Shown piece after piece: positions 4,533 through 14,133 of a stretch of DNA of 34,298 nucleotides. How positions within the stretch are numbered: position 1 is the stretch's first letter; the number at the start of each line of letters is the position of its first letter. Below the pieces are notes generated by a model. That model was not told the origin of the DNA and ran no database searches. It was given only the letters and a program-made list of their open reading frames with translations. The translations under genes and the position numbers were made by a program. This DNA is from Kineosporia sp. R_H_3 (GTDB taxonomy: Bacteria > Actinomycetota > Actinomycetes > Actinomycetales > Kineosporiaceae): positions 1-34,298 of the forward strand of contig NZ_MWLL01000214.1 of assembly GCF_002198675.1 (NCBI RefSeq). The letters run 5' to 3'.

Positions 4533-6059
4533 ATGCAGCTCCCCTCCCTCGGTGCAGCCCGCGGTCGTCGCGCGGCGATCGCCGCCGCCTCCGCGCTGGC
4601 GCTCGCCGGCGGTGCAGCGACCTTCGTCGCCCTGCCGGCCGGCGCGGCCCTGCCGACGTCGTACGCGGGCAACGCGTACCCGGCGACCCTCGCCGCGCCG
4701 TCCGGCGACAAGCAGCAGAGCAAGGTCTGGCGCGCCTCGAACGCGTGGTGGGGCGTCCTCATCTCGCCCGCCAAGGGCGTCCCGACGATCCAGGAGCTGC
4801 TCGCCAACCACACGTGGCGCGACACCGGTGTCGTCGTCGACACCCGCGCCGACTCCACCGCGGACGTCTGGTACGCGGCCAACACGCTGTACACGGTCAG
4901 CCGCACGGCGACCGGCAACATCCAGTACTCGCGGTTCACGCTCAGCGCGAGCCGGGTGTGGAGCAAGGTCACCGGCTTCCCCGTGACGGTCGCGGCCGGC
5001 GGCACCGAGTCGGCGTCGCTGGCCCGTGACTCGGGCGGCACGATCTGGGCGACGTGGACCCAGGGCGCGCGGGTCTGGTACGCCAAGTCGGCCGGCACCA
5101 ACGACAAGACCTGGACCAAGGCGCTGCTGCCGGTATCGGACAACACCGTCGCGGCCGACGACGTCTCCGCGATCCTCGCCTTCAACGGCAAGATCGGCAT
5201 CGGCTACTCGGACCAGCAGAGCGACGCCTTCCACTTCGCGATCCACACCGACGGCGCGGCCGCCGGCACCTGGAAGCTCGAGACCCCGCTGGCCGGCGCC
5301 GACCTCGTCGACGACCACATCAGCCTCAAGGCGGTCGGCGGCGACGCGCGCGTCTTCGCCGCGGTGAAGACCTCGCTCGACGCCGCCGGTGCCGCGGACG
5401 ACGCGACCCTCATCTACGTGCTGCGCCGCAACGCGGACGGCACCTGGACGAAGACCCGCGGTGCGAGCGTCGGCGACAAGGCGACCCGGGCCCAGCTCTT
5501 CCTCGACCGGGAGAACTCGCGGGCCTACCTGCTCACCTCCGGCCCGGCCACCGGCGGGACGATCTACTACAAGACGGCGCCGTTCGTCGGCATGAAGTGG
5601 GCCCGCGGCCGGGGCGCCCCCCTCATCACCGCCGCCGGGTCGGTGCTCAACGACGTGAGCGTCGCCAAGGGCTCGACGACGGGTGCCTCGGACATGGCCG
5701 CGATCGCCTCGGACACGGCGAACCACCGCTACTACCACGCGGAGATCCCGGTCCAGGCGGCCGACGAGCAGGCGCCGATCTCGCAGACGGCGATCAACTC
5801 GGCCGCGACCGGCGCCGGTGAGATCACCACGACGTGGCCGCTCGCCACGGACGACCGCGGGATCACCGCGTACGACGTCTACATGAACAACGCGAAGATC
5901 AGCACGATCACGATCACCGCGGCGAACGAGAACCTGCGCACCTTCACGTTCACCAAGACCGGCCTCGCGGCGGGCACGTACCGCTTCGCGGTCGTCGCCA
6001 AGGACGCCGCGGGCAACTCCGGGATCAAGCGGACGGCGAGCGCGGTCGTCCTCCCCTGA
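4533..6059 (+). CDS. P1: exported beta-propeller plus fibronectin III protein
   Basis: The product has 508 residues. A signal peptide with a twin-arginine-free basic start and a hydrophobic core ends near ALPAGA (about residue 38). Residues 45-405 form repeated beta-rich units with Trp/Asp-box-like turns (DGTWTK, AGTWKLET), which I read as a six- or seven-bladed beta-propeller of the BNR/sialidase-like kind. No sialidase catalytic residues could be assigned. Residues 410-508 are a fibronectin III-like domain (DDRGITAYDVYMN ... AKDAAGNSG). The signature DKQQSKVWR-x4-AWW, then HTWRDTG and STAD, is shared with P2, P3 and P4. I chose ATG 4533 because an AAAAGGA site precedes it and it places the signal peptide at the N-terminus; an in-frame GTG at 4386 lacks both. 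A strong hairpin follows. The function is unknown. Confidence 0.85.
   Translation: MQLPSLGAARGRRAAIAAASALALAGGAATFVALPAGAALPTSYAGNAYPATLAAPSGDKQQSKVWRASNAWWGVLISPAKGVPTIQELLANHTWRDTGVVVDTRADSTADVWYAANTLYTVSRTATGNIQYSRFTLSASRVWSKVTGFPVTVAAGGTESASLARDSGGTIWATWTQGARVWYAKSAGTNDKTWTKALLPVSDNTVAADDVSAILAFNGKIGIGYSDQQSDAFHFAIHTDGAAAGTWKLETPLAGADLVDDHISLKAVGGDARVFAAVKTSLDAAGAADDATLIYVLRRNADGTWTKTRGASVGDKATRAQLFLDRENSRAYLLTSGPATGGTIYYKTAPFVGMKWARGRGAPLITAAGSVLNDVSVAKGSTTGASDMAAIASDTANHRYYHAEIPVQAADEQAPISQTAINSAATGAGEITTTWPLATDDRGITAYDVYMNNAKISTITITAANENLRTFTFTKTGLAAGTYRFAVVAKDAAGNSGIKRTASAVVLP
4706..4736 (+). repeat. 31-bp exact direct repeat between P1 and P4
   Basis: Bases 4706-4736 in P1 are identical to 10496-10526 in P4. 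The repeat encodes the DKQQSKVWRA signature. It is the longest exact match I noticed between the paralogs, and it shows that conservation extends to the DNA level. It could support recombination that deletes P2 and P3. Confidence 0.8.
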
Positions 6060-6077
6060 CCGGGGCCGCCTGACAGC

Positions 6078-6123
6078 CGGGCCCGGGGCGAGCACAGCAC
6101 CTCTGTGCCCCGCCCCGGGCCCG
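6078..6123 (+). terminator. Terminator hairpin after P1
   Basis: A perfect 13-bp GC-rich stem pairs 6078-6090 with 6111-6123. The loop contains a second 6-bp stem (6092-6097 with 6103-6108). There is no U-tract, as is common in actinobacteria. It isolates P1 from P2. Confidence 0.85.
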
Positions 6124-6205
6124 ACCTGCTCGACGAGCGCCGGATGCCGCCCGGTGGCAGCATGATCCCTTCCGCCGGACAGCGCCCGCCAAGGACCTCC
6201 TGACC

Positions 6206-7837
6206 ATGCCCCAGCACTCCCGAAGCGCCCCGCGGGGCCGCGGCGTCGCGATCGCGGCCGCGGTCGTCGCGCTCGTCGTCGCCGCGGGGGCCGCCGTGTA
6301 CCTGGGGCTGCCGTCGCTGCGGGCGCTGCAGGAGCGCAGGGTCTTCCCGGCGGCCACGGCCCCGGCGACGGCCGGCGGACCGGCGCCGTCCGTGGCTCCG
6401 CTGGTCCCCGCGACGCAGGCGCCGGCGTCCTTCGCCGGCCAGCGCTACGCGGCGCGGCTGCCCGCCCCGAGCGGTGACAAGCCGCAGAGCAAGGTGTGGC
6501 GGGCGGACGGCGCCTGGTGGGCGGTGCTGGTCTCGGCGAAGAAGAAGGTGCCGACCGTCCACGAGCTGCGTGACGACCACACCTGGCGCGACACCGGCAC
6601 GGTCGTCGACGCCCGGGCGGACTCCACCGCCGACGTGCTCTTCGAGAAGAACGCGCTCTACGTCGTGAGCCGGACCCTCACCGGCGCCATCACGTACGCC
6701 CGCTTCCGGTACACCCCGGCGAAGCGCTCCTACGTCAGGGCCGACGGCTTCCCCGCGACGGTGGCGACCGGCGGCGCCGAGTCGGCGTCCCTCGCGCGGG
6801 ACACGACGGGGACCGTCTGGGCGACGTACACCCAGGGCGGGCGGGTCTGGTTCGCGCGGGCCGGCCCCGAGGACGACACCGCGTGGTCCCGGGCGCTGCT
6901 CCGGGTGCCCGACAACACCGTCGGCGCGGACGACGTGTCGGCGATCGTGGCCTTCGACGGCAAGGTCGGCATCGCGTGGTCGGACCAGGGCGACTGGGCG
7001 TTCCGGTTCGCCGTCCACGTCGACGGCGACGCCCCCGGCACGTGGAAGGTCGAGACGCCGCTGTCGGGCGAGGGCATGGTCGACGACCACATCAACCTCA
7101 AGGCCGTCGCCGGCGACGGCCGCGTGTTCGCCGCGGTGAAGACCTCGCAGGACCTCGTCGGCGCCGGCGACGAGGCGCCGGGGATGTACGTGCTGCGCCG
7201 GGACCCCGACGGCACGTGGGAGAAGGCCGTCGTCGGCCTCGTCGGCGACCGGCTGACCCGCCCCCAGCTCCTCCTCGACCGGGAGAGCTCCCGGGTGTAC
7301 CTGTTCGAGGGTGCACCGACCACCGGCGGCACCATCTACTACAAGTCGTCGCCGTTCGACGGCCTGAAGTTCGCCACCGGTCGCGGGGCACCCTTCATCA
7401 AGGCCCCGGCCGGGGCGGCGATCAACGACGTGAGCACGACGAAGGGTTCGACGACCCCCGCGGTGGGCGCGGTCGCGATCGCGGTCGACACGACCGGGCA
7501 CCGCTACTTCCACGGCGAGCTGCCGATCACCGCGGACGACATCCAGCCGCCGCTCGCGCAGACGCAGATCACCTCCTCGCCGACGGCCGAGGGGGCGATC
7601 ACGACCACGTGGCTGCCGGCGACCGACGACCGCGGCGTCGTCGCCTACGACGTCTACATGAACGGCGTCGTCGTCGAGACGATCGACGTCACGGCGCAGA
7701 ACGAGAACACCCGGCAGTGGTCGTTCACGTCGCCCACCCTCACACCCGGCACCTACCAGTTCGCGATCGAGGCCAGGGACGCCGCCGGCAACACCGCTCC
7801 CCGGCGCACGGCCAAGCAGGTCGTCGTCGTCCCCTGA
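6206..7837 (+). CDS. P2: membrane-anchored beta-propeller plus fibronectin III protein
   Basis: The product has 543 residues and is a paralog of P1 along its whole length. It carries the same signature (DKPQSKVWR, AWW, HTWRDTG, STAD), the same internal landmarks (VDDHINLKAV, GGTIYYKSSP) and a closely similar fibronectin III end (DDRGVVAYDVYMN ... EARDAAGN). It differs at the N-terminus: after a short basic start, the helix AIAAAVVALVVAAGAAVYLG is followed by a charged stretch (RALQERR) and a Pro/Ala linker of about 35 residues with no clear cleavage site. It is therefore more likely tethered to the outer membrane face by an uncleaved anchor than released. ATG 6206 is preceded by AAGGA about ten bases upstream. 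No enzymatic motif was recognised. Confidence 0.83.
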   Translation: MPQHSRSAPRGRGVAIAAAVVALVVAAGAAVYLGLPSLRALQERRVFPAATAPATAGGPAPSVAPLVPATQAPASFAGQRYAARLPAPSGDKPQSKVWRADGAWWAVLVSAKKKVPTVHELRDDHTWRDTGTVVDARADSTADVLFEKNALYVVSRTLTGAITYARFRYTPAKRSYVRADGFPATVATGGAESASLARDTTGTVWATYTQGGRVWFARAGPEDDTAWSRALLRVPDNTVGADDVSAIVAFDGKVGIAWSDQGDWAFRFAVHVDGDAPGTWKVETPLSGEGMVDDHINLKAVAGDGRVFAAVKTSQDLVGAGDEAPGMYVLRRDPDGTWEKAVVGLVGDRLTRPQLLLDRESSRVYLFEGAPTTGGTIYYKSSPFDGLKFATGRGAPFIKAPAGAAINDVSTTKGSTTPAVGAVAIAVDTTGHRYFHGELPITADDIQPPLAQTQITSSPTAEGAITTTWLPATDDRGVVAYDVYMNGVVVETIDVTAQNENTRQWSFTSPTLTPGTYQFAIEARDAAGNTAPRRTAKQVVVVP

Positions 7838-7857
7838 CCGTCGGCGCCAGCACCCCC

Positions 7858-7938
7858 GTTCGGCCGAGGTCCGGGTCGGGTGTTCGACCGAGGGTCTCGG
7901 GGGAACCTGTCCCCTGCGTCCCGACCTGTCCCTACGCT
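7858..7938 (+). promoter_or_regulatory. Predicted P3 promoter with repeated half-sites
   Basis: Two pairs of direct repeats precede a TACGCT -10 box (7933-7938). GTTCGrCCGAGG occurs at 7858-7869 and 7882-7893, 24 bp apart. ACCTGTCCC occurs at 7905-7913 and 7924-7932, 19 bp apart, with its inverse GGGACAGG at 7968-7975 just before the start codon. Repeats at one to two helical turns around a -10 box suggest regulator binding. No clear -35 is seen. Confidence 0.4.
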
Positions 7939-7983
7939 CGTCCCCCTGAGCGCCCGGGGGCGGGCGCGGGACAGGGGCCAGCG

Positions 7984-10182
7984 GTGAAGGACGGAACGAC
8001 CACCGGCACGAGGACCGGAGCGACGGACGTCAGGCGGGCGCTGCTGCGGCTGCCGCGGATGCGCCGGACGGCGGCGGTCGCGGTGACCGCCGTCGCGCTC
8101 ACGGTGGGCGGGGCCGGCTGGGCCGCCCTGCCGGCGGCGGCGGCCGGCACCCCCGTCACGTACGCCGACCACACCTACCCGTCGACGGTGACCGCACCGA
8201 CGGCGGACAAGCCGCAGAGCAAGGTCTGGCGCAACGACAACGCCTGGTGGTCGGTGCTCATCTCGGCGTCCGCGGGCATCCCGACGATCCACGAGCTGCG
8301 CAGCGACCACACGTGGCGGGACACCGGCGTCGCGATCGACACCCGCGCGAGCAGCACCGCCGACACCGAGTCGTTCGGCAGCCAGCTCTACGTCGCGAGC
8401 CGGGCGTCCGGCTCGAACCTGCTCTTCTCCCGGTTCACGTACGTGCCGGGCTCGCGGACCTACGCCCGCGACAGCGGTTTCCCGGTGACCATCGCGACCG
8501 GCGGCTCGGAGTCGCTGACGATCGCCCGGGACACGGTCGGCACCGTCTGGGCGACGTGGACCCGCGGCTCCCGCGTCTACCTCGCGCACACGACGACGTC
8601 CGACACGGCGTGGACCGCGGGCACGACCGTCCCGGTCCCGGACACGACGCTGTCCTCGGACGACATCTCCGGCATCGTGTCCTTCAACCGGTCGGTCGGG
8701 ATCATGTGGTCCGACCAGCAGAGCGTCGCGGTCCGGTTCGCCATCCACGACGACGGCGACCCCGACACCGCCTGGCGCGTCGAGACGCCGCTGTCCGGCG
8801 GCCTCCTCGCCGACGACCACATCAACCTCAAGTCGCTCGTGGACGACGTCCAGGGCCGGGTCTTCGCCGCGGTGAAGACCTCGAAGACGGCGAGCGGGGA
8901 CGCGATCATCCTCGTGCTCAAGCGGACGAGCAGCGGCACCTGGACGTCGACGACCGGCGCCACCAAGGCGACCGGCGCCACCCGGCCGCAGATCGTCCTC
9001 GACTCCGAGCACAGCGTGCTCTACCTGCTCATGACCGCCCCCGAGGCCGGCGGCACGATCTACTACAAGTCCTCGCCGCTGTCGTCGCTGTCGTTCGCGT
9101 CGGGCCGGGGCAGCGTCTTCATGCAGGCCTCGGGCGCCAAGCTCAACAACGTCAGCACGACGCGTGACCCGGTGACGAGCGCGACCGGGCTCGTCGCCAT
9201 CGCCTCGGACGACGCGAACAAGCGGTACTACCACACCGAGATGTCGCTGGCGGACGGCGGCGGGGGCGGCGACACGACGCCGCCGACGGCGCCGGGCGAC
9301 GTCGCGGCGAGCGCCTCGGCCCCGACGGCGGTCGACGTCACATGGACCGCCTCGACCGACGCGGTCGGCGTCTCCCGGTACGAGGTGCTGCGCAACGGCA
9401 CCCAGATCGGCACGACGACGACGCTCGCGTACACCGACACGACCGCCGCGCCGTCGACGACGTACACGTACGGCGTCCGGGCCCGTGACGCCGCGGGCAA
9501 CGTCTCCACGGCCACTTCGGCCGCGCCCGTGACGACCCCGGCCGACCCGAACCCGCCGCCCACGGGCAGCGTGGCCTTCCGCTCGGGCTCGACGTTCTCC
9601 ACCGCGGGCGCGACCGCGCTGACCGTCGCGAAGCCGGCCGGTCTCGCCGCGGGTGATGTCGTCCTCGCGACGGTCTCGTCGCGCGGCGCACCGAAGATCA
9701 CCGCACCGGCGGGCTGGACGCTCGTGGGCAGCACGCCGAACTCGACGACGATGGTCCAGGCGGTCTACAGCCACGTCGCAGGCGCGTCGGAGCCGGCGTC
9801 GTGGACGTGGACGCTGTCGAAGACGCAGGTCGCCGTCGTCCAGCTCGACGCGTACTCGGGCGTCAGCACGACGACCCCGGTCCGGTCGTTCGCCGGCCAG
9901 GCCAACGCGAGCGGGGCCACGATCACGACGCCGGCCGCGGCCGCGACCGCGGGCGACCTCGCCGTGGCGCTCTTCGGCACCGGCCGGGCGTCGGCGATCA
10001 CGCCGCAGGCCGGGCTCGTGGAGCGCACCGAGGTGATCAGCTCGACCGGGTCGACGAAGGTCTCCGGCGCCGCCGCCGACCGCGCGGTCACGACGACCGG
10101 CACGGTCGGCCCGTTCACGGCGACGACCCCGACGGGGTCGGCCGCGAACGTCGGGCAGACCGTCGTCCTCCGGGCGGCCTGA
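7984..10182 (+). CDS. P3: exported beta-propeller, fibronectin III and C-terminal adhesion-like module
   Basis: The product has 732 residues from GTG 7984, or 707 from ATG 8059. A long basic N-region precedes a signal peptide ending near ALPAAAAG. The propeller (about residues 63-420) has the family signature (DKPQSKVWR, AWW, HTWRDTG, STAD) and the DDHINLK and GGTIYYKSSP landmarks. A Gly-rich hinge (DGGGGGD) leads to a canonical fibronectin III domain (about 425-525, TPPTAPGDVAASASAP). A further module of about 200 residues begins near GSVAFRSGSTF and contains APAGWTLVGS, ASEPASWTWTL and GPFTATTPTGSA. This last beta-rich module occurs in P4 but not in P1 or P2. GTG 7984 is downstream of a -10 box and a GGGACAGGGG sequence. 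The role is unknown; the architecture suggests a surface or matrix protein. Confidence 0.82.
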   Translation: MKDGTTTGTRTGATDVRRALLRLPRMRRTAAVAVTAVALTVGGAGWAALPAAAAGTPVTYADHTYPSTVTAPTADKPQSKVWRNDNAWWSVLISASAGIPTIHELRSDHTWRDTGVAIDTRASSTADTESFGSQLYVASRASGSNLLFSRFTYVPGSRTYARDSGFPVTIATGGSESLTIARDTVGTVWATWTRGSRVYLAHTTTSDTAWTAGTTVPVPDTTLSSDDISGIVSFNRSVGIMWSDQQSVAVRFAIHDDGDPDTAWRVETPLSGGLLADDHINLKSLVDDVQGRVFAAVKTSKTASGDAIILVLKRTSSGTWTSTTGATKATGATRPQIVLDSEHSVLYLLMTAPEAGGTIYYKSSPLSSLSFASGRGSVFMQASGAKLNNVSTTRDPVTSATGLVAIASDDANKRYYHTEMSLADGGGGGDTTPPTAPGDVAASASAPTAVDVTWTASTDAVGVSRYEVLRNGTQIGTTTTLAYTDTTAAPSTTYTYGVRARDAAGNVSTATSAAPVTTPADPNPPPTGSVAFRSGSTFSTAGATALTVAKPAGLAAGDVVLATVSSRGAPKITAPAGWTLVGSTPNSTTMVQAVYSHVAGASEPASWTWTLSKTQVAVVQLDAYSGVSTTTPVRSFAGQANASGATITTPAAAATAGDLAVALFGTGRASAITPQAGLVERTEVISSTGSTKVSGAAADRAVTTTGTVGPFTATTPTGSAANVGQTVVLRAA

Positions 10183-10199
10183 GCCGTACGCACCGGTCG

Positions 10200-10235
10200 A
10201 CGGATGCCCCGTGGCGATCGCCACGGGGCATCCGT
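10200..10235 (+). terminator. 36-bp perfect palindrome, terminator after P3
   Basis: Bases 10200-10235 form a perfect palindrome: a 16-bp stem closing a GATC centre. It lies 18 bp after the P3 stop and is the most regular hairpin in the window. No U-tract follows. Confidence 0.85.
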
Positions 10236-10261
10236 AGATCGGACGGTATCGACCCAAGTTA

Positions 10262-10300
10262 GTAACAATACGTAGACAACACATCTACCTTCGGTAACGA
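10262..10300 (+). promoter_or_regulatory. Predicted P4 promoter in an AT-rich patch
   Basis: TAGACA (10273-10278), a 16-bp spacer and TAACGA (10295-10300) form a candidate promoter inside a patch of about 45 bp that is far more AT-rich than its surroundings. GTAAC occurs twice in the patch (10262-10266 and 10294-10298), 32 bp or about three helical turns apart. Confidence 0.4.
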
Positions 10301-10340
10301 GGTGCGCCCGGGGCCCGGGCGCCACGACCGAAGGCTGTTC

Positions 10341-12458
10341 ATGCATCCCGTCACACGCACGATCCTCGGGACGGTCACCGCCGTCGCGATCGCGTCCGCC
10401 GGCGCCGGCTGGGCGGCGGCGCCCGCCGCGGCCGCCGGCCTGCCGACCACCTACGCCGGCCCGACGTTCCCCGCGACCGTCGTCGCGCCGTCCGCCGACA
10501 AGCAGCAGAGCAAGGTCTGGCGCGCCGACGGTGCCTGGTGGGCCGTCATGGCCGACACCGCGACCGGCACGCCGACGATCCACGAGCTGCTCGGCGACCA
10601 CACCTGGCGCGACACCGGGATCGCGATCGACACCCGCGCGAACAGCACCGCGGACGTCGAGACGATCGGCACGACGCTCTACGCCGCGAGCCGGACGGCG
10701 ACCGGCGACCTGCTCTTCAGCCGCTTCACGTACAGCGCCGGCAGCCGGACGTACGTCAAGGACTCCGGCTACCCGGTGACGATCGCGAGCGGCGGCACCG
10801 AGTCGCTGTCCATCGCCCGCGACTCCGCCGGGACGATGTGGGCGACGTGGACGAAGAGCTCTCGGGTCCTCTACGCCTACACGACCTCCTCCGACGCCGC
10901 CTGGTCGGTCCCGGACTTCGTGCCGTCGACCGACACGACGGTCGCCGCCGACGACGTCTCCGGCATCGTCGCGTTCAACGGCCATGTCGGGATCATGTGG
11001 TCCGACCAGCAGAGCTCGGCGTTCCGCTTCGCCGTCCACACCGACGGCCAGGCCGCGGGGACGTGGGCCACCGAGACCCCGCTGTCGGGCACCGGCATCG
11101 CCGACGACCACATCAGCCTCAAGGCGGTGACGAACGACTCCCTCGGCCGGGTCTTCGTCGCGCTGAAGACGAGCAACGACGTCGTCACCAAGGTGCCGAC
11201 CGACCCGCTCGTCGTCGTCCTCAAGCGCGAGAGCAACGGGACGTGGCAGACCGCGACCGGGGCGACCGTCGCCGACGGCGCGACCCGGCCGCAGGTCGTC
11301 ATCGACTCCGAGCACTCCCTGCTCTACCTGCTCATGACGGCGCCGGTCTCGGGCGGGGCGATCTACTACAAGACCTCGCCGCTGGCCTCGCTGACGTTCG
11401 GCGGCGGCCGGGGCGCGGTGTTCATGAAGGCCTCGGGCGCCAAGCTCAACAACATCAGCACGACCAAGGACCCGGTGGCCTCGCCGAGCGGGCTCGTCGC
11501 GATCGCCGCGGACGACACCGCGCACCGTTACTACCACGCCGAGATGCCGCTCGCCCCGGCCGGCGACCACCAGCCGCCGACGAACCCCGCCTCGGTGACG
11601 TCGACCGTCATGTCGGCGACCTCGGTGCAGTCGTCCTGGCCGGCCGGCACGGACGACGTCAAGGTCGTCTCGTACGACGTCTACCGGGACGGCGACCCCA
11701 TCGGCACCACGACGAGCCTGAGCTACACCGACACCACCGCCGTCGGCGGGACGACGTACCGGTACGGCGTCCGGTCGGTCGACGCGGCGGGCAACGTGTC
11801 GTCCCTGCGGCAGGGCGCCCCCGTGACGACGCCCAAGGTGGGCGGCTCGGTCGTCGTGCACGGCACCGCCAAGGCGGCCACCGCCGGTGCGACCGGCATC
11901 ACGGTCATCCGCCCGACCACCGTCGTGGCGAACGACATCATGGTCGTCGCCGTGACGGTGCGGACCCTGCCGACGCTCACCGCCCCCTCGGGGTGGACCC
12001 GCGTCGTCCAGACCGACAACGGGACGGCGCTGCGGCAGGCGGTGTACTGGAAGAAGGCGGGCGCCTCCGAGCCCGCGTCCTACCGGTGGACGTTCTCGGC
12101 CTCGCGGGCCGGCACCGTCCAGCTCGTCGCCTACAAGGGGCTCAGCACGACGGCCCCCGTGCGTGCGGCCGCCGGCAAGGCGAACGCCTCCTCGGCGACG
12201 AGCACCGCGCCCGCCGTGGCGTCGGCCGCCGGTGACCGGGTGCTCACGGTCTTCGGGACCGCCCGCACGGGGGCGATCACGCCGATGGCCGGGCTCACCG
12301 AGCGGACCGAGGCGACCGTCCCGACCGGGACGACGCTCACGGCCGAGACCTCCGACAAGCAGATCGCGACGACGGGAGGCGTCGGGCCGTTCACGGCGAC
12401 GACGTCGACCGGTGCTGCCGTGAGCATCGGCCACACCCTGTCGCTGCGCTGGGCCTGA
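10341..12458 (+). CDS. P4: exported beta-propeller, fibronectin III and C-terminal adhesion-like module
   Basis: The product has 705 residues. It starts MHPVTRTILGTVTAVAIASA and has a typical signal peptide with cleavage near APAAAAG. The propeller (about 30-405) carries DKQQSKVWR, AWW, HTWRDTG and STAD, then DDHISLKAV and GGAIYYKTSP. The fibronectin III domain (about 407-500) is of the P3 type (VDAAGNVSSL). The last 200 residues align with the P3 end module (APSGWTRVVQ, ASEPASYRWTF, GPFTATTSTGAA). ATG 10341 has GAAGG seven bases upstream and directly begins the signal peptide, so the in-frame upstream extension was not used. P3 and P4 look like the more recent duplicate pair by architecture. 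The molecular function is not recognised. Confidence 0.84.
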   Translation: MHPVTRTILGTVTAVAIASAGAGWAAAPAAAAGLPTTYAGPTFPATVVAPSADKQQSKVWRADGAWWAVMADTATGTPTIHELLGDHTWRDTGIAIDTRANSTADVETIGTTLYAASRTATGDLLFSRFTYSAGSRTYVKDSGYPVTIASGGTESLSIARDSAGTMWATWTKSSRVLYAYTTSSDAAWSVPDFVPSTDTTVAADDVSGIVAFNGHVGIMWSDQQSSAFRFAVHTDGQAAGTWATETPLSGTGIADDHISLKAVTNDSLGRVFVALKTSNDVVTKVPTDPLVVVLKRESNGTWQTATGATVADGATRPQVVIDSEHSLLYLLMTAPVSGGAIYYKTSPLASLTFGGGRGAVFMKASGAKLNNISTTKDPVASPSGLVAIAADDTAHRYYHAEMPLAPAGDHQPPTNPASVTSTVMSATSVQSSWPAGTDDVKVVSYDVYRDGDPIGTTTSLSYTDTTAVGGTTYRYGVRSVDAAGNVSSLRQGAPVTTPKVGGSVVVHGTAKAATAGATGITVIRPTTVVANDIMVVAVTVRTLPTLTAPSGWTRVVQTDNGTALRQAVYWKKAGASEPASYRWTFSASRAGTVQLVAYKGLSTTAPVRAAAGKANASSATSTAPAVASAAGDRVLTVFGTARTGAITPMAGLTERTEATVPTGTTLTAETSDKQIATTGGVGPFTATTSTGAAVSIGHTLSLRWA

Positions 12459-12499
12459 CCGCCGCAGGGCGCCGTCGCACCCGGCACGACCGCACCATC

Positions 12500-12536
12500 G
12501 GACGCCGGTCCGAGGCACCGCCTCGGGCCGGCGTCC
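12500..12536 (+). terminator. Terminator hairpin after P4
   Basis: Bases 12500-12515 pair with 12521-12536: a 16-bp stem with one G-T wobble and a 5-base loop, 41 bp after the P4 stop. Confidence 0.85.
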
Positions 12537-12570
12537 GGCCGTCCGGGGCCGTCCACGCAGTGGGACAAGT

Positions 12571-13083: not shown

Positions 13084-14133
13084 GTGCGTCCGCGTCATCG
13101 TGTCCGGCCTGCAGGCAGGCTCCGCCGCACGGCAGTCGTCATGGCTGTCGGAGCAACGATCTCGGGCGGGCTGATCGCCGCCGACCTCCACCCCGCGAGC
13201 GCCGCGGTCACGTACGTCGTGTCCCCGGGCGGCAGCGACGCGGCGAGCGGCTCGGAGGGCGCGCCGTGGCGCACCCTCGGGGCCTCCTTCAAGAAGCTGC
13301 GGCCGGGCGACCGGCTCGTCGTCAAGGGGGGCACCTACGCCGAGCAGGTGAAGGTCACCCCGGTCAAGGGCACCGCGTCCGAGCCGATCACGGTCGTCGC
13401 GGCCCCCGGTGAGCGGCCCGTCGTCCAGGGCCTGCTCTGGCTCAAGGGCGCCGACTACTGGACCCTCGACGGGATCAACGTCACCTGGGGCCCGAAGAAC
13501 ACGAGCAGCCAGCACATGGTGAAGATGACCGGCGGCGTCGGCTGGCGGATCACGAACGCCGAGATCTGGGGCGCCCGCTCCTACGCCGGTCTGCTCGTCG
13601 CCGGGACCCCGAGCAAGTGGATGGTCGACCACAACTACATCCACGACACGTACAAGAGCAACGGCACCAACCAGGACCACCTGATCTACGTCAACGGCAG
13701 CATGGGCGGCGGGATCATCGAGCGGAACCTGCTGGCGCGCAGCGCGAACGGCCGCGGGCTGAAGATCGGTCCGCCGTCCGGCAGCAGCGCCCCGATCGGC
13801 AACGTCGTCGTCCGGTACAACACGTTCTACGACAACACCGGCCCGTCGAACCTGCAGCTGTCGTACGGCGCGAGCAGCGTCTCGATCTACCGGAACGTCT
13901 TCGACACGTCCGGCAAGGGCAAGCCGAACATCACGACGTACAACCTGTCCGGCAGCGGCAACGTCGCCAAGGACAACGTCGGCTGGCACTCGGACGGCGT
14001 CCTCGAGCCGACCAAGGGCCTCGCCGACGGCGGCGGCAACGTCATGGCCGACCCCGGCACCACGGTGACCTCGGCCGGTGTGGTGAAGACGGCGTCCCTG
14101 TCGGGCTACGGGCTGACGGCGACCGCCGGCTGA
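13084..14133 (+). CDS. Secreted right-handed parallel beta-helix protein
   Basis: The product has 349 residues. An N-terminal arginine-rich region and hydrophobic segment (AVVMAVGATISGGLIAA) end near HPASAA, a signal peptide. The mature start TYVVSPGGSDAASGSEGAPW, followed by LRPGDRLVVKGGTYAEQVKV, is the entry segment of the pectate-lyase-like/DUF1565 beta-helix superfamily. Later coils show the usual N-rich repeats (VDHNYIHDTYK, IERNLLARS, VVRYNTFYDN, SIYRNVFDTS). Family members cleave or bind polysaccharides. I could not assign catalytic residues, so lyase activity is only a possibility. GTG 13084 was chosen for its excellent ribosome binding site. It stands alone between strong terminators, directly after the P1-P4 array, with a long leader that suggests its own regulation. 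Confidence 0.85.
   Translation: MRPRHRVRPAGRLRRTAVVMAVGATISGGLIAADLHPASAAVTYVVSPGGSDAASGSEGAPWRTLGASFKKLRPGDRLVVKGGTYAEQVKVTPVKGTASEPITVVAAPGERPVVQGLLWLKGADYWTLDGINVTWGPKNTSSQHMVKMTGGVGWRITNAEIWGARSYAGLLVAGTPSKWMVDHNYIHDTYKSNGTNQDHLIYVNGSMGGGIIERNLLARSANGRGLKIGPPSGSSAPIGNVVVRYNTFYDNTGPSNLQLSYGASSVSIYRNVFDTSGKGKPNITTYNLSGSGNVAKDNVGWHSDGVLEPTKGLADGGGNVMADPGTTVTSAGVVKTASLSGYGLTATAG

Follow-up and report, generated by a model that had tools for sequence, protein, structure and literature searches.

Four tandem beta-propeller paralogues of Kineosporia sp. R_H_3 and their possible action on exopolysaccharide

Seven-bladed beta-propellers are known from FoRham1, an L-rhamnose-alpha-1,4-D-glucuronate lyase whose family number we take to be PL42, from GH145 and PL25 enzymes and from the PLL/PHL/BP39L/CV39L lectins, and all of these resemble in fold the products of P1 to P4, four tandem genes of Kineosporia sp. 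R_H_3 (contig NZ_MWLL01000214.1) that are the subject of this report. The PLL-type lectins have similar sugar sites repeated in several blades. FoRham1 is reported to have founded a new lyase family and to have a His85/His105 pair; lyases of the PL42/PL24 type use a base-acid histidine, a neighbouring histidine and a neutralising arginine on the anterior face, and GH145 hydrolyses Rha-GlcA with a catalytic His48 on the posterior face (PMC8377490). The window, which is the whole stretch of 34,298 nucleotides analysed here, is the entire contig (C129) of a 7.26-Mb draft genome.

P1-P4 are members of an undescribed branch of propellers, the kind itself being known. Our tentative reading, which we hold at somewhat short of even confidence, is that they are secreted, are active on carbohydrate and have the exopolysaccharide of the cell itself as their target, with an enzyme slightly favoured over a lectin. 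The array is made up as follows, with coordinates in the window.

4533-6059, plus strand: P1, 508 residues, with a signal-peptide-like N-terminus, a seven-bladed propeller (4662-5753) and one FN3-like domain.
6206-7837, plus strand: P2, 543 residues, with an N-terminal hydrophobic anchor or signal, a propeller (6431-7528) and one FN3-like domain.
8059-10182, plus strand: P3, 707 residues (732 if it starts at 7984), with a signal-peptide-like N-terminus, a propeller (8161-9249) and an FN3-like domain.
About 9532-10179, plus strand: extra C-terminal part of P3.
10341-12458, plus strand: P4, 705 residues, with a signal-peptide-like N-terminus, a propeller (10452-11552) and an FN3-like domain.
About 11826-12455, plus strand: extra C-terminal, beta-rich part of P4.

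The four genes are paralogues lying head to tail, all on the plus strand, and the six motifs named in the sequence-only reading of this DNA, which had described four tandem exported paralogues, occur once each and in the same order in P1-P4. Their common domain of about 365 residues (P1 44-407, P2 76-441, P3 35-397, P4 38-404) is 63% identical to that of P1 in P2, 52% in P3 and 56% in P4. The fibronectin III part seen in the same reading was recovered when a four-protein profile was compared with the FnIII domain of chitinase A1 (1k85, E 2.5e-13); Pfam fn3 matches P3 alone and below the cut-off (E 6.7e-4, 20.3 bits against 25). P1 and P2 stop after this domain and P3 and P4 carry about 200 residues more. 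This end part has no Pfam match save a weak one to TOBE_2 (E 0.33), no match among PDB sequences and one weak match to a PHROG of unknown function (E 6e-5), and within this genome it is found only in P3, P4 and a paralogue on contig C27. Besides the C27 copy there is an interrupted one on C263 (29694-31066), broken at an ambiguous base, which is either a gene break or an assembly fault. The N-terminal segments of P1-P4 are hydrophobic, with a 19-residue mean that is highest in P2 (2.57, against 1.94 in P1, 1.76 in P3 and 1.55 in P4), and those of P1, P3 and P4 have AxA-like ends. From these putative export signals the proteins are predicted to be exported, secreted or held at the surface.

AlphaFold2 predicts residues 44-407 of P1 as a seven-bladed beta-propeller with a mean predicted local distance difference test score (pLDDT) of 94.9 and a predicted template modelling score of 0.93, and full-length P4 with a pLDDT of 92.5. 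The alignments behind these models came from 95 homologues reduced to 63 at 80% identity: 67 rows for P1 (the 63 with P1-P4) and 62 rows for P4 (61 of the 63 with P4). The blades were assigned by hand from the strand list of the predicted P1 model; there are seven, with at most four strands each, and the first strand completes the last blade and closes the ring. A propeller of about 360 residues, proposed earlier from the letters of the sequence, is thus what the models also give.

Fold comparison covered the families returned by VIA-align and Foldseek. For the P1 propeller, VIA-align gives the same highest score to the propeller domain of CylK, a Friedel-Crafts alkylating enzyme (7fh8, Z 28.2, root-mean-square deviation (rmsd) 3.5, 329 aligned), and to FoRham1 (7esl, Z 28.2, rmsd 3.7, 341 aligned). 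They are followed by the GH145-type structure 5mum (Z 27.5, rmsd 3.8, 335 aligned), another of GH145 type (27.2), the PLL-type lectins (Z 25-27), the PL25 ulvan lyase (Z 25.6) and BT3686 of GH145 type (24.5), with RACK1 and integrin propellers lower (Z 23-24). The ranking for P4 is similar, and Foldseek places a Pseudomonas neuraminidase/pseudaminidase first (E 1.9e-9), then a PHL lectin, then 5mum. The PL42, GH145 and PL25 enzymes align over the whole domain. Because identity is about 10% in the VIA-align rows, these matches show the kind of protein and not its family, and the likeness of GH145 to the P1 and P4 propellers is a fold match only.

Searches by sequence returned no family for the propeller. 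No Pfam model covers it in P1-P4, and even at E<=1 the most that any Pfam family reaches is 5 of the 67 propellers, all such hints being weak (Reg_prop 5, SGL 3, BNR_4 1 and BNR_2 1); it has no match in NCBIfam for P1-P4, none in PHROGs for P1 and P4, and the 67-row profile has none among PDB sequences at E<=1. BNR_4 (PF15892), the Pfam family of FoRham1, was considered and set aside, as it matches none of P1-P4 at E<=1 and a single one of the 67 propellers (E 7.3e-6). Homology in sequence to BNR_4, the polysaccharide lyases or GH145 was likewise not found by Pfam, PDB profiles or hhalign, even with the query doubled to allow for blade rotation. Our literature searches gave no paper recognisable as concerning this propeller family. 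The sequence-only reading had been unable to name an enzyme family, and this stands, the fold matches being too distant to supply one.

Twenty-two polar residues are conserved in 90% or more of the 67 sequences, and 15 of them, from all seven blades, lie near the start of an innermost strand, where near means positions -6 to +3 (70 of 364 positions, a width picked after the residues were seen). In P1 they are, blade by blade, K60 Q62 K64, D103 R105 D111, E159, D209 D210, D260 D261 H262 K266, R319 and N373. When the register is slid by 12 positions or more, only 0-3 residues fall in this range. The innermost-strand starts of a propeller usually face the mouth of the central channel, and the 15 residues in the model probably form one composite central site, a candidate for the active or binding site. 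All 15 are retained in each of P1-P4 and in 53 of the 67 sequences.

Identity to FoRham1 is about 10%, and a counterpart of its reported His85/His105 pair and arginine was not recognised in the P1-P4 family; membership of PL42, PL24, PL25 or GH145 is therefore not claimed. The family has one invariant histidine column, H262 of P1 in blade 5, the next best being present in 52 of 67 sequences (blade 4) and 49 of 67 (blade 7). Compared with the PLL-type lectins, P1-P4 have a composite, blade-specific polar set and carry FN3 and other domains. CylK is 10% identical to P1; P1-P4 have only a signal-like segment before the propeller, and their family is found in the context of exopolysaccharide genes. 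The domain behind the propeller is like the chitinase A1-type FN3 domains of bacterial glycanases, but here its partner is an undescribed propeller instead of a known catalytic domain.

Relatives were sought in a genome collection, and the best 80 of 162 were kept, giving 78 loci. All are from Actinomycetota except L077 (Chloroflexi) and L096 (Kouleothrix, which we presume to belong to Chloroflexota). Of 396 genomes drawn evenly from across the phylum, 13 match, the genome of the window included, and 41 genomes chosen as known carriers have 1 to 7 matches each, fragments among them. Adjacent copies occur at 10 of the 78 loci, three of these in Kineosporia, and in Arthrobacter sp. ISL-28 four copies stand head to tail in an array of independent origin (L086, 2702-12704), three of them having been removed by the 80% identity cut. 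The 62 full-length proteins carry PKD (20), Big_5 (Ig-like, 10), fn3 (9), CBM96 (6), FG-GAP_3 (4) and SLH (1) domains, and by these companions they resemble exported proteins held at the surface or in a matrix.

A survey of copy number and neighbours in related genomes provided the main addition to the sequence-only reading, which is a link to exopolysaccharide genes. At least one of five gene types (GT2, GT4, priming transferase, Wzx flippase and UDP-glucose dehydrogenase) is present at 49 of the 78 loci compared with 3 of 40 control stretches, and at least two at 18 of 78 compared with 1 of 40. The loci have a mean length of 14.7 kb and the controls, taken from 21 of the same genomes, are 17 kb long; genes at the related loci were placed by a purpose-written gene caller and not by annotation. 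Each half of the loci was scored with models trained on the opposite half, and for the controls a hit by either half-model was counted. The positive genera are Kineosporia, Pengzhenrongella, Pseudonocardia, Geodermatophilus, Modestobacter, Blastococcus, Nocardioides, Segeticoccus, Georgenia, Kineococcus, Amnibacterium, Arthrobacter and Pseudarthrobacter, and UDP-glucose dehydrogenase is near 9 of the 78 loci. A Pfam tally covering the four nearest genes on each of 30 loci chosen from the 78 gives Bac_transf 4, GT2 4, Glyco_trans_1_4 4 and UDPG_MGDP_dh 3 in 120 proteins. In the control tally these families have at most one each in 119 proteins (25 of 143 families are listed), one of 120 control proteins having been dropped for an X or inner stop.

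Among 20 scanned representatives of recurrent neighbour clusters 14 have a Pfam match at E 1e-4 and 6 have none, and the matched ones include GT2, GT4, a priming sugar transferase, a Wzx-type flippase, UDP-glucose dehydrogenase, GH16, phytase and GDSL esterase. The phytase-type cluster is found at 5 of the 78 loci (L039, L052, L054, L071 and L081, the last being the scanned member). An annotated phytase gene also adjoins the family member on the conjugative Arthrobacter plasmid pAD51 (L164, 9099-14988).

In the window itself the array is flanked by pntAB on one side and on the other by genes for a beta-helix-like protein, an acetamidase, a hydrolase, YhhN and ATP-binding cassette (ABC) transporters.

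13141-14133, plus strand: exported beta-helix-like protein directly 3' of the array, with all Pfam matches below the cut-off.

In two sister genomes a C27-type copy is followed by a homologue of this beta-helix-like protein (49% identical), and the pair adjoins two GT4-type genes. In Kineosporia locus L036, which also has the array, a piece of a GT4-type gene lies at the edge, about 7 kb from the array.

Under our reading P1-P4 would be exported to the cell surface, where the propeller would present a charged central pocket. This pocket may receive a single acidic stretch, probably with uronate, of the exopolysaccharide made by the cell itself, while FN3, Ig, PKD, CBM96 or SLH parts would hold the protein in the matrix or wall, and the propeller might then cut, trim or otherwise modify the chain in the manner of a lyase or hydrolase. 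The neighbouring genes together with the fold make a uronate-bearing exopolysaccharide of the cell itself the likeliest ligand, and a glucuronate-containing substrate, as for FoRham1, would agree with the presence of UDP-glucose dehydrogenase genes nearby. Since the pocket is composite and kept, catalysis is slightly likelier than binding alone. The gene would have been duplicated to four before the species split, with P3 and P4 in a steady role and P1 and P2 varying.

Several observations weigh against this. The 34-kb window has no glycosyltransferase, the beta-helix-like gene is the sole local link of the array to polysaccharide, and two array loci of this genus, L035 and L037, belong to the 29 loci (of 78) where none of the five gene types occurs. 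For the neighbour comparison the nominal p is 3e-9, which is too small, since the five types were picked after their recurrence had been seen and many loci are kin. Pfam matches neither the second nor the third commonest of the neighbour clusters (18 and 15 loci), and the control list has one Polysacc_synt_2 and one DegT protein. Regarding the pocket, the -6 to +3 positions were chosen post hoc, a conserved histidine pair like that of FoRham1 was not recognised in the family alignment, and 3 of the 15 residues are changed in the C27 copy, the one set among sugar genes. The hhalign probability for BNR_4 is 3%, obtained against only 7 BNR_4 sequences. Finally, a conserved tryptophan recurs at the start of the fourth strand in blades 1, 3, 4 and 5 (W95, W194, W247 and W305 of P1); it could be structural or mark repeated lectin-like sites, and the argument for a single site is weakened by it.

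The history of the array can be followed in this genus. The block pntAB-P1-P2-P3-P4-beta-helix is also found in Kineosporia sp. A_224 (L036), and the same block is present on two contigs of a groundwater genome (L035 and L037), where it is apparently broken inside P2. In a maximum-likelihood tree of 72 propellers the array genes of these three genomes and the Kineosporia copy L038 form one clade (100/98), which places the duplication into four within this lineage and ahead of the divergence of the three species. Set against the A_224 counterparts, P1 has 75% protein identity, P2 81%, P3 93%, P4 94% and the C27 copy 97%, and the ratio of nonsynonymous to synonymous substitution (dN/dS) is 0.52, 0.39, 0.17, 0.17 and 0.11 respectively, which makes P1 and P2 changeable and P3 and P4 slow. 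The sequence-only reading had proposed diversification of the four copies. This applies to P1 and P2, which diverge fast between species, and not to the slow P3 and P4, and since the 15 central polar residues are kept in all four copies the divergence spares that set.

Simple positive selection on P1 was considered and rejected, dN/dS being 0.52 and thus below 1. The variability of P1 and P2 may come from relaxed constraint, allele exchange or selection. Their dS against A_224 is high (0.39 and 0.33) compared with most flanking genes (0.08-0.17, two reaching 0.29-0.37), and allele exchange, hidden paralogy or composition fit this equally well. The P1 of the window groups uncleanly with the other two P1 sequences (fork 90/48). 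Orthologue changes at the central site are not significantly rarer than elsewhere in P1 (15/70 against 79/294, p 0.45) but are so in P2 (4/70 against 46/294, p 0.03).

A rival reading is a non-catalytic matrix lectin or adhesin that binds exopolysaccharide or another surface sugar, helps to build the matrix or attach cells, and whose copies vary their partners. We regard this as doubtful. In its favour, the nearest folds include the PLL-type lectins (Z 25-27), the companion domains are adhesin-like, P1 and P2 evolve fast and four blades carry the tryptophan at an equivalent position. In Geodermatophilaceae, moreover, two paralogues (L048, 5981-7690, and L053, 6062-7711) depart from the set at 10 and 8 of its 15 residues and lie directly before an intact copy, which also suits a binding protein. 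On the other hand, the residues at the innermost-strand starts differ in every blade and the set is kept whole in 53 of 67 sequences, which is more like a catalytic pocket.

It is less probable, and in our view unlikely, that P1-P4 serve nutrition by degrading foreign plant or fungal polysaccharide in the way of secreted carbohydrate-active enzymes. The FN3 layout is like that of secreted glycanases (NCBIfam exoglucanase CbhB matches far below the cut-off and only behind the propeller), the downstream part of the window has genes for an ABC importer of peptide type and for two proteins resembling ABC exporters, and a ricin-type lectin domain is encoded upstream. Where neighbours of the relatives could be named, however, most are genes for synthesis (priming transferase, flippase, UDP-glucose dehydrogenase and glycosyltransferases). 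The ricin-type beta-trefoil domain (PF14200) belongs to a gene at 3-494 within which the contig starts, and L035 has a 91% identical gene.

Least probable of all is a metal-dependent phosphatase, lactonase or other small-molecule propeller enzyme, of the phytase, SMP-30 or CylK type, that would not act on exopolysaccharide directly: CylK ties for the best fold match, many conserved acidic residues lie near the channel and phytase genes occur nearby (the cluster at 5 of 78 loci, Pfam Phytase in 2 of the 120 nearest genes and the pAD51 neighbour), but exopolysaccharide genes are commoner as neighbours, and at E<=1 Pfam Phytase matches 0 of 67 propellers and SGL only 3, weakly (best E 0.003).

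Actinobacterial exopolysaccharides have a role in drying tolerance and attachment, and little is known of the secreted proteins that shape them. A wider form of the exopolysaccharide reading, which is speculative and more unlikely than not to hold in full, is that P1-P4 represent a hitherto unrecognised enzyme family of Actinomycetota, made up of secreted lyase- or hydrolase-like propellers that tailor exopolysaccharide and multiplied in tandem in several lineages; here two copies would be steady and two would differ from species to species in the manner of a changeable surface module. The family is a testable candidate in that it has a candidate active site, is absent from the libraries searched and recurs near exopolysaccharide genes, and an array with fast and slow copies is a natural experiment in protein specialisation. 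Pending an activity its interest is moderate.

With regard to phages, two queries against 50,697 phage records gave no propeller match, and 2 records match the FN3 part only. A family member is present on IMG/VR contig 3300049932_000069 (L113, 2322-7088); it follows, at a distance of about 1 kb, the gene of a terminase large subunit that is 68% identical to that of Arthrobacter phage Hum25. No open reading frame of the length of the Hum25 portal gene occurs in the following 4 kb, and the one downstream and one upstream frame that were searched are unmatched; this may be a prophage edge or phage cargo.

The intergenic stretches of the array contain three hairpins, which the sequence-only reading had taken as terminators allowing separate expression.

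6078-6123, plus strand: hairpin after P1, without a T-run (z -3.63 for the stretch 6057-6140).
10200-10235, plus strand: hairpin after P3, a perfect 16-bp stem without a T-run (z -7.02 for the stretch 10180-10265).
12498-12538, plus strand: hairpin after P4, without a T-run (z -3.93 for the stretch 12456-12540).

The hairpins are there, each stretch being more stable than all 200 of its shuffles, but the T-run of a classical terminator is missing, and no terminator of that kind occurs between 4300 and 14300. Scans of the window for tRNA genes and Rfam families found nothing. The stretch 3' of P2 is ordinary (z -1.1), and the hairpin after P3 is the most extreme of the three.

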